Below are positions 2,130-39,121 of a stretch of 64,000 bases of DNA, one piece after another. The DNA comes from an uncultured Lachnospiraceae bacterium (GTDB taxonomy: Bacteria; Bacillota; Clostridia; Lachnospirales; Lachnospiraceae). Both the position numbers and the translations under genes were made by a program. Below the pieces are notes generated by a model. It was not told the DNA's origin, ran no database searches, and saw only the letters and a program-made list of their open reading frames with translations. The DNA lies in the NCBI GenBank assembly GCA_902763335.1, contig CACWRR010000001.1, positions 62,001 to 126,000 of the forward strand, read 5' to 3'. Numbering within the stretch: the stretch's first letter is position 1; the number at the start of each line of letters is the position of its first letter.

Positions 2130-3348
2130 TGTAGCAGTTGTTGGTGGGGGTGCCGCCGGAATGATTGCGGCCATAGCGGCTGCGGAAAATGGACATAAAG
2201 TAACTTTGTATGAACATAATGAAAAGCTTGGCAAAAAACTGTTTATAACAGGAAAGGGGCGCTGTAATGTAACGAATGCGTCTGATATTGATGAAATATT
2301 TAATAATATTGTGACCAATTCAAAATTTCTATACAGTTCGATTTATACATTTACAAATGATATGGTTATGGATTTCTTTGAGAAAGACGGGCTGAAGCTT
2401 AAAGTTGAACGTGGAAACAGAGTATTTCCGGCATCGGATCATTCATCTGATGTAATAAAGGTTTTAGAAAAAAGATTAAAAAAATCAGGTGTAACAGTTA
2501 AGCTTAATACAAACGTTGAAAGACTGCTTTGGGATGACAGTGGGATTAAAGGAATAGTGGCAGAAAATAAAGACATAATGGCGGATGCGGTTATAATGGC
2601 AACCGGAGGATTATCATATAAATCAACAGGTTCCGATGGAAGCGGATTTAAAATGGTCACCGGTGCAGGACACAGTACATCTGAGTTTTCGCCGGCTCTT
2701 GTTCCTATTACGATAGAAGAAGATTACCCAAAAGAAATGCAGGGTGTATCACTCAAAAACATTGAGGTGGAAATACTTAATGGAAAGAAGAAAATATATA
2801 GTGCATTTGGTGAGATGTTGTTTACTCATTTCGGAGTGACGGGGCCGGTTATATTAAGCGCCAGCAGTAAGATTATTAAACATCTTAAAAACGGTAATCT
2901 GACATTGAAGATAGATTTAAAGCCGGCACTGACAGAAGAACAGCTTGATACAAGGATACTTAGGGATTTTAAAGAAAATATAAACAGAGACTTTAAAAAT
3001 TCGCTTGATGGATTGCTGCCTAAAAAAATGATAGAACCGATTATAAGATATTCGGGTATTCCATTTGATAAAAAAGTAAATGTGATAACCAGAGAAGAAA
3101 GAAGAAATCTTGTGAAGGCATTTAAAGAGTTTACCATGACAATAAACGGTATAAGAGGGTACGATGAGGCGATAATCACACATGGTGGTGTAACAGTTAA
3201 GGAAATTAATCCGGCAACTATGGAGTCGAAACTTATAAAAGGACTTTACTTTGCCGGTGAAATGATAGATGTGGATGCACTTACCGGAGGATATAATCTG
3301 CAGATAGCATGGTCAACAGGATATCTTGCAGGGACAAGTGTAGTATAA
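2122..3348 (+). CDS. BaiN/HI0933-like NAD(P)/FAD-dependent oxidoreductase
   Basis: A 408-residue flavoprotein. The N-terminal dinucleotide fold is clear (AVVGGGAAGMIAAIAAAENG), followed by KLGKKLFITGKGRCNVTN, the hallmark of the HI0933/YhiN/BaiN family, and a C-terminal FAD-contacting stretch ending GLYFAGEMIDVDALTGGYN. Family members are poorly characterised; BaiN of Clostridium scindens reduces bile-acid intermediates, but most homologues are housekeeping proteins of unknown substrate, so a bile-acid role should not be assumed. It overlaps the RpiR gene by 8 bases. The next gene, cmk, is 70 bases downstream behind a dispersed repeat fragment. Confidence 0.85.
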   Translation: MSNVAVVGGGAAGMIAAIAAAENGHKVTLYEHNEKLGKKLFITGKGRCNVTNASDIDEIFNNIVTNSKFLYSSIYTFTNDMVMDFFEKDGLKLKVERGNRVFPASDHSSDVIKVLEKRLKKSGVTVKLNTNVERLLWDDSGIKGIVAENKDIMADAVIMATGGLSYKSTGSDGSGFKMVTGAGHSTSEFSPALVPITIEEDYPKEMQGVSLKNIEVEILNGKKKIYSAFGEMLFTHFGVTGPVILSASSKIIKHLKNGNLTLKIDLKPALTEEQLDTRILRDFKENINRDFKNSLDGLLPKKMIEPIIRYSGIPFDKKVNVITREERRNLVKAFKEFTMTINGIRGYDEAIITHGGVTVKEINPATMESKLIKGLYFAGEMIDVDALTGGYNLQIAWSTGYLAGTSVV

Positions 3349-3395
3349 TGATGTCGGGGCAAAATAGTGCTACGCACCAGCCGGGACAAATATAA
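3349..3395. repeat. Half copy of a dispersed palindromic intergenic element
   Basis: The gap between the flavoprotein gene and cmk holds GCAAAATAGTGCTACGCACC-AGCCGG-type sequence resembling the left arm of the large palindrome at 14908-15015. The 11-mer CGCACCAGCCG at 3373-3383 is identical to 14925-14935, and both copies carry a small hairpin just before it (here GTGC-TAC-GCAC). The right half of the element is missing here. Confidence 0.5.
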
Positions 3396-3418
3396 TATAG
3401 AAATGGAGAGAGTAAAAA

Positions 3419-4081
3419 ATGAATATAGCAATAGACGGACCTGCAGGAGCAGGAAAAAGTACAATAGCAAAGAAAGTAGCATCGGATATAGGATATGTAT
3501 ACGTTGATACCGGAGCAATATACAGAACACTGGCCTTGGCATGTATAAGAAAAGGTATCACGGCAGATGATGAGAGAAATGTGTGTGACATCTGCAAAAA
3601 TACAAAAGTAGACATAAAGTATGTTGACGGTGAACAGATAATGCTTTTAGACGGAGAAAATGTAAACGCTTATATACGTTCAGAGGATGTGAGCAGAATG
3701 ACTTCATCAATATCAGTGTATAAGGAAGTAAGGGAACAGCTCATAGATTTGCAGAGGTATATTGCAGAGAAAGAAAATGTAATAATGGATGGAAGAGATA
3801 TAGGAACATTTGTGCTTCCGAATGCGGAAGTGAAAGTATATCTTAACGCTAGTGTGGAGACAAGGGCAAAGAGAAGATATCTTGAGCAGAAAGATAAAGG
3901 TGTTGAATGCTCACTTGAGGATATAGAAAAGGATATAAAAGAGAGAGATTACAGGGATATGCACAGGGATATAGCGCCGTTACGCAAGGCGGATGATGCA
4001 GTAGAGGTAGATACCTCTTACATGACTATTGATGAGGTTGTTATGAAAATAAAGGATATCATAAAGGAGAAAGCCGAATAA
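3419..4081 (+). CDS. cmk: Cytidylate kinase
   Basis: A 220-residue (d)CMP kinase of usual length, phosphorylating CMP and dCMP with ATP in the cytoplasm. The P-loop GPAGAGKST is at residues 6-14, then YVDTGAIYRTLAL, the CMP-binding DGRDIGTFVLP (about 125) and the lid-region arginines KRRYLEQ. A GGAGAG ribosome site precedes the ATG. The stop codon shares one base with the ispH start (TAATG), and ispH in turn overlaps rpsA, so cmk-ispH-rpsA is one translationally coupled unit, an arrangement known from Clostridia. Confidence 0.95.
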   Translation: MNIAIDGPAGAGKSTIAKKVASDIGYVYVDTGAIYRTLALACIRKGITADDERNVCDICKNTKVDIKYVDGEQIMLLDGENVNAYIRSEDVSRMTSSISVYKEVREQLIDLQRYIAEKENVIMDGRDIGTFVLPNAEVKVYLNASVETRAKRRYLEQKDKGVECSLEDIEKDIKERDYRDMHRDIAPLRKADDAVEVDTSYMTIDEVVMKIKDIIKEKAE

Positions 4082-12290: not shown

Positions 12291-13655
12291 ATGATAAATA
12301 TATTTGAGGTAAACGAGACAAATAAAATGATAGAGCAGGAAAATCTCGACGTAAGAACAATTACATTGGGAATAAGCCTGTTAGACTGTATAGACAGTGA
12401 TGTAGATAAGTTATGTGATAAGGTTTACAATAAAATCACAACACTTGCCAAAGATCTTGTATCTACAGGTGAGGAGATAGAGAAAAAATACGGTATACCA
12501 ATCGTAAATAAAAGAATATCAATCACACCTGCGGCTATAGTCGGCGGTGCTGCATGTAAGACAGAAAAGGATTTTGTAAAGCTTGCCAAGACACTTGATA
12601 AGGCAGCAAAGAAAGTTGGAGTAAATTTCCTTGGCGGTTATTCAGCTCTGGTAAGTAAGGGCATGACAGCAGCTGATGAGCTTCTTATAAGATCAATACC
12701 TGAAGCACTCTCAGTTACAGAGAGAGTATGCAGTTCTATAAATGTGGGTTCAACAAAGACAGGACTTAACATGGATGCAGTAAAGCTTATGGGTGAGATG
12801 GTATTAAAAACTGCTGAGTACACTAAGGAAGATGACTGCTTAGGATGTGCTAAACTTGTTGTATTCTGTAATGCACCTGATGATAATCCTTTTATGGCAG
12901 GAGCATTTCATGGAGTTACCGAGGCAGATGCCATAATAAATGTCGGAGTAAGTGGTCCGGGAGTTGTAAAGACAGCGCTTGAAAAAGTAAGAGGCGAAAA
13001 CTTTGAAGTATTATGTGAGACCATTAAGAAGACAGCATTTAAGGTAACAAGAGTAGGACAGCTTGTAGCTAAAGAAGCATCTGAAAAACTTGGCATACCT
13101 TTTGGAATAATAGATTTATCGTTAGCACCGACACCTGCCGTAGGAGACAGTGTGGCAGACATTCTCAAGGAAATCGGACTTGAGCATCCGGGAGCACCGG
13201 GAACAACGGCAGCACTTGCACTTCTTAACGATCAGGTTAAAAAAGGCGGTGTTATGGCTTCTTCATATGTAGGAGGGTTAAGCGGAGCATTTATTCCTGT
13301 CAGTGAAGATCAGGGAATGATAGATGCCGTAAATGCAGGAGCATTAACTATAGAAAAGCTTGAAGCAATGACTTGTGTATGCTCTGTAGGTCTTGATATG
13401 ATAGCTATACCTGGCGATACATCAGCAGATACTATTGCCGGTATTATAGCAGACGAATCAGCTATAGGAATGATTAATCAGAAGACAACAGCAGTCAGAG
13501 TTATACCGGTTATAGGTAAAGGTGTAGGAGAGACGGTAGAATTTGGCGGATTATTGGGATATGCACCAATTATGCCGGTAAACAGTTTCTCATGTGAACA
13601 GTTTGTAAACAGAGGAGGAAGAATACCGGCACCTATACATAGCTTTAAGAATTAA
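12291..13655 (+). CDS. PFL family protein, UPF0210/DUF711
   Basis: A 454-residue cytosolic protein of the conserved DUF711 family, distantly related to the glycyl-radical PFL fold but lacking a recognisable C-terminal glycyl radical loop. Seen: [18 protein letters not shown] at the start, [12 protein letters not shown] and [20 protein letters not shown]. The ATG at 12291 is chosen by family alignment; an in-frame TTG at 12285 is better spaced from GGGAAAGG and cannot be excluded. Its function is not established; the constant partner is the ACT protein upstream. Its last four bases overlap the convergent tmcAL gene. Confidence 0.85.
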
Positions 13656-14875
13656 TCATATACAATCATACCTGTTGTATATTCATTCTTTAAATTATTC
13701 AGATTATATTTTTGACTGAGAACAAAATTATATAAATCATCACATCTGATGTTGTGTTTCAGCATGGAGAGTGATGTATCATCCAGCAGTTTGCCGCTGT
13801 CAGACATTTTACTGATAACCGGCAGGCTGCTGTTTTGTTTTATCACACTTAAAAGAGAACTGTGGGATTTTCTGAATCCAAGCATCCTTATATATCTGTT
13901 ATAATTATTTTTAATATATGAATTAATATCCGCAGTTGTAATATCAAGCATAATGTGAATAAGAGCACGGTTACAGCGCCCTGTGGTAATGTGTTTGCCT
14001 GATATCATGGAAGTTAATCCGTTAAATGTTTTACAGTTTTTCTGATTATTATTAATACTGTTTGCAAGAAATTTATTAACATCAAGATAATCTTCAAGGC
14101 TGTCTGCAAATAAAATTTTGTAGAATAAAAAATCCGAGAAATCATTTTCGGATACAGGCAGGGCAGAAGTGAATATATCCCATATCTGTTCCGGTATATA
14201 ATCTTTTATAGCGTCAACAGATGAAGTGCTGATGGATTTGCGGATACCGCTTGCAGACGCAAATTTTTCTGTAAGTGAATCGGAATGGTAACCGTAATCA
14301 CGTCTGATGATAACCGGTTTTATATTGTAATTATTTTTTAGAATTGCTTTTACATATTCTATGGCAAGAATGGAGTTCGGGGATGATAAAATGCGTAAAA
14401 CTTCATCGTATTCTTCATTTTTAAACATAGTTAAAAGAGCCTTGATACGACTCTTTGCAAATGGCATACCGGATTTGAGAAAATCCTGCAAGTGATTTTT
14501 ATATTCAAACGGTTCAGATATAAGTATGCCGGCAATATCCTTTATCAGGTCAATGTTTTCGGTCTCGCAGCCAAAACACAGATAATCGGCACATCCGAGT
14601 GAGGCAACCAGATTAACGGCACCGGATGCAAAGTATTCGGCACTGCCTGTAGAGTAAAAAATGGGAAGTTCAAATACGGCGTCACAGCCGCATGACAGAG
14701 CCATATGTGTTCTTGTGTATTTATCAAAAACAGCTGGGATTCCACGTTGTACATAATTTCCGCTCATTACGATAACAACATTTTCTGCTTCTGTAATCTC
14801 ACGTACCTTATCTATCTGATAGAGATGTCCCGTGTGAAAGGGATTATATTCAGCTATAATAGCCGCAGTAGACAT
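13652..14875 (-). CDS. tmcAL: tRNA(Met) cytidine acetate ligase
   Basis: A 407-residue nucleotidyltransferase-like enzyme (YlbM family). B. subtilis TmcAL makes N4-acetylcytidine at the wobble position of elongator tRNA(Met) from acetate and ATP. The HxGH-type nucleotide site is [13 protein letters not shown] (residues 8-20), followed by MSGNYVQRG and [16 protein letters not shown]. ylbM lies in the ylb region together with ylbH and ylbJ in B. subtilis, so the vicinity of rsmD and ylbJ is conserved in part. AckA, which produces or uses acetate, is divergent across the palindromic element. Confidence 0.9.
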
Positions 14876-14907
14876 TAAAACACCACCTAATCTTTATTAT
14901 ATGTCAG

Positions 14908-15015
14908 GTGTCAAAAAGGTGTTGCGCACCAGCCGAGCATAAATAGGCGTATTTGCAAGCCGGCTTGCATAACACCTATTTATGTCCGGCTAGTCCCTAC
15001 AGGGACTTTTGACAC
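14908..15015. repeat. 108-bp imperfect palindromic intergenic element
   Basis: The gap between tmcAL and ackA (14876-15186) contains a nearly symmetric palindrome centred at 14961/14962. Outer arms are GTGTCAAAA (14908-14916) and TTTTGACAC (15007-15015); middle arms are AGCCG/CGGCT (14931-14935, 14987-14991) and CATAAATAGG/CCTATTTATG (14938-14947, 14975-14984); the centre is the perfect 16-mer TGCAAGCCGGCTTGCA (14954-14969). Each flank also has its own unrelated small hairpin: GGTG-TTGCG-CACC on the left and AGTCCCT-AC-AGGGACT (14992-15007) on the right. It carries no ORF. A left-half relative lies at 3349-3395. A MITE- or REP-like element is my inference. Confidence 0.75.
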
Positions 15016-15114
15016 TTAAATATTATATGTTAAATTTTATTATATTATTGAAGTATATGCAAGTATAAATACCGATGCTCTGACAACAAACACCTGATGC
15101 ATGATAAAAAATAC

Positions 15115-15143
15115 TTGTGCCTGAAAAATAAAAGGATTATAAT
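15115..15143 (+). promoter_or_regulatory. Candidate sigma-A promoter of ackA
   Basis: TTGTGC (15115-15120), a 17-base spacer and a perfect TATAAT (15138-15143) lie 43 bases before the ackA ATG. An AAAGGAG ribosome site follows at 15171-15177. Confidence 0.6.
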
Positions 15144-15186: not shown

Positions 15187-16380
15187 ATGAATGTTTTAGT
15201 TATTAACTGTGGAAGTTCATCTTTGAAATTTCAGCTTATTGATTCAATCTCAGAGAAAGTTCTTGCAAAGGGACTTTGTGAGAGAATAGGTATAGAAGGC
15301 AGCAGACTTGTATATCAGCCGGAAGGCGGAGAGAAGGAAGTTATAGAGTCAGACATGCCAAATCATTCAAAGGCAGTAGGTATGGTACTTGATGCTCTTG
15401 TAAATGAAAAGACAGGTGTAATAAAGAGTCTTGATGAGGTAGGAGCAGTCGGACACAGAATAGTTCATGGTGGTGAGAAATTCGCTTCTTCAACAATTAT
15501 CACAGATGAGGTTATAGAGGCTATAAAAGAGTGTAATGATCTTGCACCATTACATAACCCTGCAAACCTTATCGGTATAGATGCATGTAAGGAACATATG
15601 CCGGACACACCTATGGTAGGTGTATTCGATACAGCGTTCCATCAGACAATGCCGGAAGATGCATATATATATGGACTTCCATATGAATACTATGAGAAAT
15701 ACAAGGTAAGAAGATATGGATTCCACGGAACATCACACAGCTATGTATCAAAGCGTGTATCAGAAATATTAGACAAACCATATGACGAATTAAAGACAAT
15801 AGTATGCCATCTTGGAAATGGCGCAAGTATATGTGCTGTAAATGGCGGAAAATCAGTAGATACAAGTATGGGACTTACACCTCTTGAAGGACTTATCATG
15901 GGAACACGTTCAGGTGATATTGATCCTGCTATTATGGAATTTATAGCTAATAAAGAGAACATGAGCATGGATGAAGTGATGAATGTCCTTAATAAGAAAT
16001 CAGGTGTATACGGTATCACAGGATTTACAAGTGATTTCAGAGATATAATGGATGCCATGGCTAAAGGTGATAAGAGAGCAGAACTTGCAATTCACGTATT
16101 TGCATACAGAGTTATTAAATATATCGGTGCATATGCAGCGGTCATGAATGGAGTAGATGCAATCGCATTTACAGCCGGACTTGGTGAGAATAACAGCTAC
16201 ATCCGTGAAAGAATCTGCAACTCACTTGAGTACCTTGGAGTGAAGATAGATAAATCATTAAATGAGACAAAACAGGATGAGATAATAATATCTACACCGG
16301 ATTCAAAGGTAAAAGTACTTGTAGTTGCAACTAACGAGGAGCTTAAGATAGCAAGAGAAACACTTGCACTTTTAAAATAA
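15187..16380 (+). CDS. ackA: Acetate kinase
   Basis: A 397-residue enzyme interconverting acetyl phosphate plus ADP and acetate plus ATP. The ASKHA-fold start [14 protein letters not shown], the catalytic-region [10 protein letters not shown] (about 89-98), TAFHQTMP and [10 protein letters not shown] (about 177-186), LGNGAS and [10 protein letters not shown] are all present, and the length is standard. The start at 15187 is fixed by AAAGGAG just upstream and by the invariant N-terminus; an upstream frame extension to 15097 is rejected. Its metabolic partner pta is not adjacent but at 37958, so the pair is not co-transcribed here. Confidence 0.96.
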
Positions 16381-39019: not shown

Positions 39020-39121
39020 GTATAAGCAGATGCATAAACCAGCCGGCACAGATTTGCAAATTATGGACTATATTATATAACTCAGCATATACATATAAAG
39101 ATGAAGCGGAGGAGTGAAGGT

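Follow-up and report, generated by a model that had tools for sequence, protein, structure and literature searches.

A dispersed family of cloverleaf palindromes, probably MITE-like transposons, in an uncultured Lachnospiraceae bacterium

The 64,000-nucleotide stretch of Lachnospiraceae DNA analyzed here (the window) carries, upstream of the acetate kinase gene ackA, one copy of a palindromic element that is dispersed through the same genome. The element is very probably a MITE-like, non-autonomous DNA transposon that makes a 7-bp target duplication and whose interior palindromes are renewed at the DNA level. This MITE-like assignment rests on anatomy and target duplications. As far as our literature search shows, the element family is new, and it is set apart by a cloverleaf with strand-symmetric compensation and by ends common to carriers of an Rfam motif. 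It adds a mobile palindrome family of defined duplication length to gut-type anaerobes, for which the literature search found no MITE paper.

The copy upstream of ackA

A preliminary description had placed a branched palindrome of 108 bp at 14908-15015. The palindrome is present there, but comparison with other copies sets its limits slightly wider, at 14901-15022. The relevant features of the window are as follows.

3350-3390, plus strand: decayed 41-bp relative of the element with left hairpin GTGCTACGCACCAGCC (sequence, genome search)
13652-14875, minus strand: flanking nucleotidyltransferase gene (NCBIfam NF010191, 351.3 bits, just below its cut-off of 360)
14895-14904: left member of direct repeat TATTATATGT (10 of 10 bases; 4-base overlap with the decayed element end)
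14901-15022, plus strand: full-length palindromic element (alignment of 38 full-length copies, family consensus, covariance model hit)
14901-14917, plus strand: left terminal inverted repeat ATGTCAGGTGTCAAAAA (family consensus GATTCAGGTGTCAAAAG)
14918-14930: left side hairpin GGTGTTGCGCACC (family GGTGCTACGCACC; folds)
14931-14991: central hairpin with apex TGCAAGCCGGCTTGCA at 14954-14969 (folds, copy alignment)
14993-15006: right side hairpin GTCCC-TACA-GGGAC (folds)
15006-15022, minus strand: right terminal inverted repeat (consensus CTTTTGACACCTGAATC)
15021-15030: right member of direct repeat TATTATATGT, partner of 14895-14904
15115-15143, plus strand: probable ackA promoter TTGTGC-17-TATAAT (by eye, five congeneric ackA upstream regions aligned; not returned by the consensus scan)
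15187-16380, plus strand: flanking acetate kinase gene ackA (NCBIfam TIGR00016, 566.5 bits)

As RNA, positions 14890-15030 fold into a four-way cloverleaf of -58.2 kcal/mol (z -7.69, equaled by 0 of 200 shuffles), and as DNA the 122-base element folds with z values of -7.60 on the plus strand and -8.04 on the minus strand. The perfect central TGCAAGCCGGCTTGCA and the small hairpin in each flank, both pointed out in the preliminary description, are seen in these folds. The covariance model scores 14901-15022 at 94.2 bits on the plus strand and at 60.2 bits on the minus strand. At about 121 bp the element is short, and no open reading frame (ORF) of at least 90 amino acids covers it in the window; it is thus non-coding, as a MITE is. 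The 10-bp direct repeat TATTATATGT is probably the target-site duplication of this copy, although it is less clean than those of other copies.

The element lies between the nucleotidyltransferase gene, which we take to be of the TmcAL/YlbM type, and ackA. Just before ackA, a TTG...TATAAT promoter with 17-base spacing is visible by eye in five congeneric sequences. Because this promoter is downstream of the element, the element is outside the ackA leader, and an ackA leader or riboswitch was ruled out. Among four congeners, one (G001) has the divergent nucleotidyltransferase-ackA pair, and the element is absent there. The gap between the two genes is 206 nt in G001 (170 nt up to the first start and 12 further codons) versus 311 nt in the window, a shortening by 105 nt that is consistent in size with an empty site, the two gaps not being aligned base for base; the other three congeners have other neighbors at this place and are uninformative. 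The ackA copy would have inserted upstream of the promoter and is probably older than most, to judge from its decayed ends.

A strong fold is also what would be expected of a structured RNA, cis-regulatory or small, that had spread and been kept for its RNA fold. Yet both strands fold and score, the copy at ackA is upstream of the promoter, and no Rfam family matches the window at gathering score. The best Rfam hits below threshold are microRNA models, which we regard as chance hits to a long hairpin. The covariation that bears on the same explanation is considered below.

Two further sites in the window had been proposed. At 3349-3395, the proposed half copy is a real relative (3350-3390) in that a query of 3320-3420 matches many full copies in the genome over about query bases 41-74, but its own fold is no better than chance (z -0.8). 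This relative sits between an ORF ending at 3348 and one starting at 3419, with TATAAT at both of its sides (3344-3349 and 3391-3396, by eye). The site at 39038-39046 had to be given up: the covariance model finds only 14901-15022 within the window, and the 6 occurrences of CACCAGCCG at one mismatch (3.15 expected) point to chance.

Dispersed copies and target duplications

Copies were collected from the source genome, a 2.5-Mb draft in 110 contigs (G000). The element as query matched 74 times, with many palindromes counted once on each strand; half-copy matches were added, the stretches were read, a profile search listed 48 hits, and duplicates were removed by core sequence. This left 45 distinct dispersed copies, 38 of them full length (score above 35 bits). 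The family consensus reads, in order, GATTCAGGTGTCAAAAG, hairpin GGTGCTACGCACC, a central hairpin with apex TTGCAAGCTAGCTTGCAA, a hairpin around CCCCGTAGGGG, and CTTTTGACACCTGAATC. Terminal inverted repeats with consensus GATTCAGGTGTCAAAAG are therefore found at both ends, as in MITEs, and the stem of the left side hairpin is paired in 98.4% across the 38 copies. The end sequence has 95 matches in the genome at up to 3 mismatches, versus 4 for the reversed pattern. Both ends are also retained in seven derivatives, 27-65 bp long, that carry internal deletions.

The gene context of the 38 full copies was determined with long ORFs, not annotated genes, taken as genes. By this measure 33 copies are between ORFs, and the remaining ones are at the edge of their locus (3) or share bases with a predicted ORF (2). 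Neighboring genes are divergent in 12 cases, tandem in the same direction in 12, tandem in the opposite direction in 6, and convergent in 3; copies occur in both orientations. No preferred orientation or position among the 38 copies points to a terminator or leader function.

For the duplication analysis, the ends were set at GATT...AATC, and the expectation was obtained by shuffling flanks between copies. Exact direct repeats of 7 bp abut the ends in 8 of the 38 copies (0.34 expected) and exact 8-bp repeats in 3 (0.07 expected). Thirty same-ended elements from other genera, chosen for a recognizable end pair and not drawn at random, have exact 7-bp repeats in 9 cases, again versus 0.34 expected. 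With a looser duplication score, 18 of 38 copies in the source genome (2.8 expected) and 14 of 30 in other genera (2.3 expected) qualify; the score is below 6 in 20 of the 38 copies, as expected of old insertions. The duplicated heptamers are A+T-rich and often resemble YTATAAG. Among the deleted derivatives, the 7-bp flanks are identical in 3 of 7, agree in 6 of 7 bases in another 3, and agree in 2 of 7 bases in the last. Since 7-bp repeats abutting the ends occur far above expectation, they represent target duplications, and the family has therefore transposed.

The proposal of a non-autonomous mobile family in the preliminary description is borne out by the number of copies, the terminal inverted repeats, the excess of 7-bp duplications, and the size-consistent empty gap in a congener. 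Two of the checks that it had suggested, a genome search for the arms and a search for target duplications, gave positive results, and what it had named as counterevidence, a lack of further copies and conservation as part of the ackA leader only, is clearly not what we found.

The same description had also called the family REP-like. REP/BIME-type repeats, which depend on RAYT (Y1 tyrosine) transposases for their movement, are likewise palindromic, intergenic, and present in many copies. However, single-strand Y1 transposition is not known to make a target duplication, and 7-bp duplications are present here. In addition, the element has a length of about 121 bp, long conserved terminal repeats, and ends GATTC...GAATC, whereas REPs are defined as palindromes that are 20-40 bp long and carry a GTAG or CGTC tag (PMC3733652, in its accessible part). 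An origin of this kind is extremely unlikely, and the label was dropped.

It is also unlikely that the copies are transposon-derived repeats that the host now retains because they act as DNA or at mRNA ends, for example in transcription termination, and that they persist by selection. Nearly all copies are between genes, and comparable roles have been proposed for REPs (PMC3733652, accessible part), as have terminator-like properties for a pneumococcal repeat (PMC3049150, accessible part). Against this, a scan of the window copy gave no terminator-like site, only 3 of 38 copies are between convergent genes, and copies that are nearly identical and have perfect duplications seem to be recent.

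If the element is a MITE-like transposon, a transposase presumably recognizes the 17-bp terminal inverted repeats and would insert the element, by a cut with a 7-bp stagger, at A+T-rich sites that are mostly intergenic; internal deletions would then yield the 27- to 65-bp derivatives that retain both ends. Among the 95 end matches in the 110-contig draft, no pair with IS-like spacing was recognized. Of two transposase families searched, PF00872 (Transposase_mut) and PF01610 (ISL3), neither is present in the source genome, which leaves the guesses of an IS256-like or ISL3-like partner unsupported. PF00872 is present in three of six genomes (G203, G392, and G371; absent from G000, G294, and G394) and PF01610 in 2 of 16 (G027 and G371; absent from G000 and G203, among others). 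Neither tracks the distribution of the ends, and both were rejected as the autonomous partner. Contigs that break just inside an end, found within a set of eighteen further stretches from nine other genomes, showed no recognizable transposon end by eye.

A second dispersed palindromic family was noticed in the source genome, at C45:12331-12483 (L105) and about 30 other places. It has inner ends GTGCAAATTTATAGGCTGC and outer arms like TTTGCGAAACT, with no Rfam match at gathering score, and several of its copies directly adjoin copies of the first family (contigs C11, C45, and C13).

Pairing as DNA or as RNA

Changes in the stems are compensated. Among the copies of the source genome, double-sided changes are seen in 19 of 46 pairs (87 cells versus 22.3 in shuffles), and in an alignment of 18 sequences across genera 28 of 37 pairs are compensated. 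Such significant covariation favors a structured RNA, as does the presence of an Rfam-listed motif in same-ended elements (see below). RNA tolerates G-U pairs and does not tolerate A-C mismatches, and the stems of the element contain both about equally (31 G-U versus 24 A-C, with one mostly U-G pair excluded). As a control, nine tRNAs have 13 G-U versus 0 A-C (Fisher p 0.0026), in a comparison that treats related copies as independent, includes only these 9 tRNAs, and relies on ARAGORN pairing rules that favor G-U. The outer arms differ by 11% within one copy versus 26-28% between copies. Because G-U and A-C mismatches are similarly frequent and arms are closer within a copy than between copies, the pairing seems to be maintained as DNA and not as RNA. 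With the orientation to genes also not fixed (see the counts above), we consider a structured RNA very improbable.

Strand-symmetric compensation is also compatible with a unit that moves in the form of a folded single strand (attC- or IS200-like), and this route would account for the preservation of the fold; across genera, moreover, the sequence of the fold varies and its shape does not. The 7-bp duplications, on the other hand, imply a staggered double-strand cut, and the conserved end sequences would suffice for a DDE-type enzyme. This route is accordingly judged quite unlikely.

For the MITE-like element we instead envisage a non-coding interior made of a cloverleaf of palindromes whose complementarity would be restored in the DNA itself, the likeliest means being replication template switching or recognition of the folded DNA. 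The strand symmetry of the mismatches and the better match of the arms to each other than to other copies are the reasons for placing the renewal there. Template switching during replication is a described route to renewed palindromes (PMC8794818, accessible part). A kissing loop between the side-hairpin loops (CTACG/CGTAG) was considered and dropped; by eye, these loops lack covariation in the copies of the source genome.

The family thus exemplifies strong compensatory covariation that, although usually read as RNA structure, is strand-symmetric and linked to transposition. Counting G-U versus A-C mismatches may be a simple test for other orphan RNA motifs.

Shared ends in other genera and known systems

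A plain DNA search with the element had no match in the 4 congeners and, among 60 relatives, a single weak one of 26 bp. Of 397 genomes of the bacterial family, a covariance model built from the 38 copies (R1) detects the element in 12, the source genome included, and the arrangement of the copies recurs in other genera (L241, L259, and L245). The end sequence with at most 1 mismatch is more widely distributed, in 46 of the 397 genomes (source genome included) versus 4 for a reversed control, and reaches 47 matches in G203, 29 in G294, 20 in G394, and 11 in G392. Among twenty end loci taken one per genome (L117-L136), eight are paired, one being a doubtful 36-bp pair; the other twelve, where no second end lies within 500 bases, look like chance or broken copies. 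Lengths of elements with paired ends range between 38 bp, for a perfect hairpin (L141), and about 313 bp, and 33 hand-picked end pairs of G203 fall in size classes, 17 of them at 310-314 bp. Phage and plasmid records gave no match. Three exact end matches in viral contigs have no close paired end and look like chance, and an exact search of species genomes for GGTGCTACGCACCAGCCRR gave 12 hits in unrelated taxa that were also taken as chance.

Some loci met in these searches stand apart. (i) Same-ended elements of about 270 bp (L120 and L124, in G137 and G193) have a CATAAG-hairpin-CTAAGT core; judged by eye, this core is similar to the second repeat family of the source genome. (ii) Cloverleaf palindromes with quite different ends and a similar apex, GCAAGC..GCTTGC, were returned by the covariance model (L248, L256, and L261 in G234, L250 in G130, and L251 in G156). 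(iii) G294 has many single end matches followed by a common ACATACGAATTGCTTCGCAGC stretch (L265-L270), with no partner recognized nearby; one of these is near a contig break.

Some same-ended elements contain the Rfam motif TwoAYGGAY (RF01731). Three elements of 303-314 bp, one each from G087, G203, and G336, score 99.6-113.8 bits against a cut-off of 43; the motif is found within element-family terminal repeats in G203, G087, G336, and G392, and five of the six scored TwoAYGGAY places of G203 are inside end pairs. TwoAYGGAY is present in 64 of the 397 genomes, usually in several copies each, and the RF01731 model has no match in the source genome. Only 3 of 30 TwoAYGGAY loci have element-family ends at up to 2 mismatches; most copies have other, often locus-specific, inverted repeats. 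Mismatches in the TwoAYGGAY stems are about symmetric (47 G-U versus 35 A-C in 50 sequences). At L171-L220, TwoAYGGAY cores are at the tips of long inverted repeats whose sequence varies from copy to copy within one genome (for example, among six copies in G268) and is nevertheless largely self-complementary, as if flanking DNA had been duplicated in inverted form on insertion. The motif has been listed among probable RNAs, with a cis-regulatory role considered improbable (PMC2864571), and predicted to be a candidate CsrA-binding sRNA (PMC4333381); the accessible parts of these two papers do not describe it as mobile.

These observations lead us to a tentative and somewhat doubtful idea, namely, that a superfamily of mobile DNA palindromes exists with common ends (GAT..GGTGTCAAAAG) and a 7-bp duplication, in which interiors are swapped and sizes reach about 313 bp, starting with a bare 38-bp hairpin. 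Interiors catalogued as structured RNAs, TwoAYGGAY among them, would be passengers, and their covariation would arise and be kept at the DNA level (by template switching or folded-DNA recognition) and not as RNA. Should the DNA-level reading extend to TwoAYGGAY, an Rfam family would have to be reconsidered, together with the CsrA-binding role proposed for it.

Three known systems invite comparison. REP/BIME repeats with RAYTs are palindromic and extragenic, as is the element, but have 20-40 bp and a GTAG or CGTC tag (PMC3733652, accessible part). TwoAYGGAY resembles the element as a multicopy palindromic structure of the same bacterial family with symmetric mismatches, some copies of which are inside the same terminal repeats, and differs from it in a distinct core of about 168 positions and in its absence from the source genome. 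The third system is that of bacterial MITEs such as RUP (Repeat Unit of Pneumococcus), which is about 107 bp long and base-paired, has terminal inverted repeats and 110 copies in one genome, makes target duplications, and has ends in common with IS630-Spn1 (PMC3049150, accessible part). RUP and the element are thus both short, base-paired, and numerous, with terminal inverted repeats and target duplications. The duplication of RUP is TA and that of the element 7 bp; the element further differs in having no known IS partner and in its cloverleaf interior with compensated changes.
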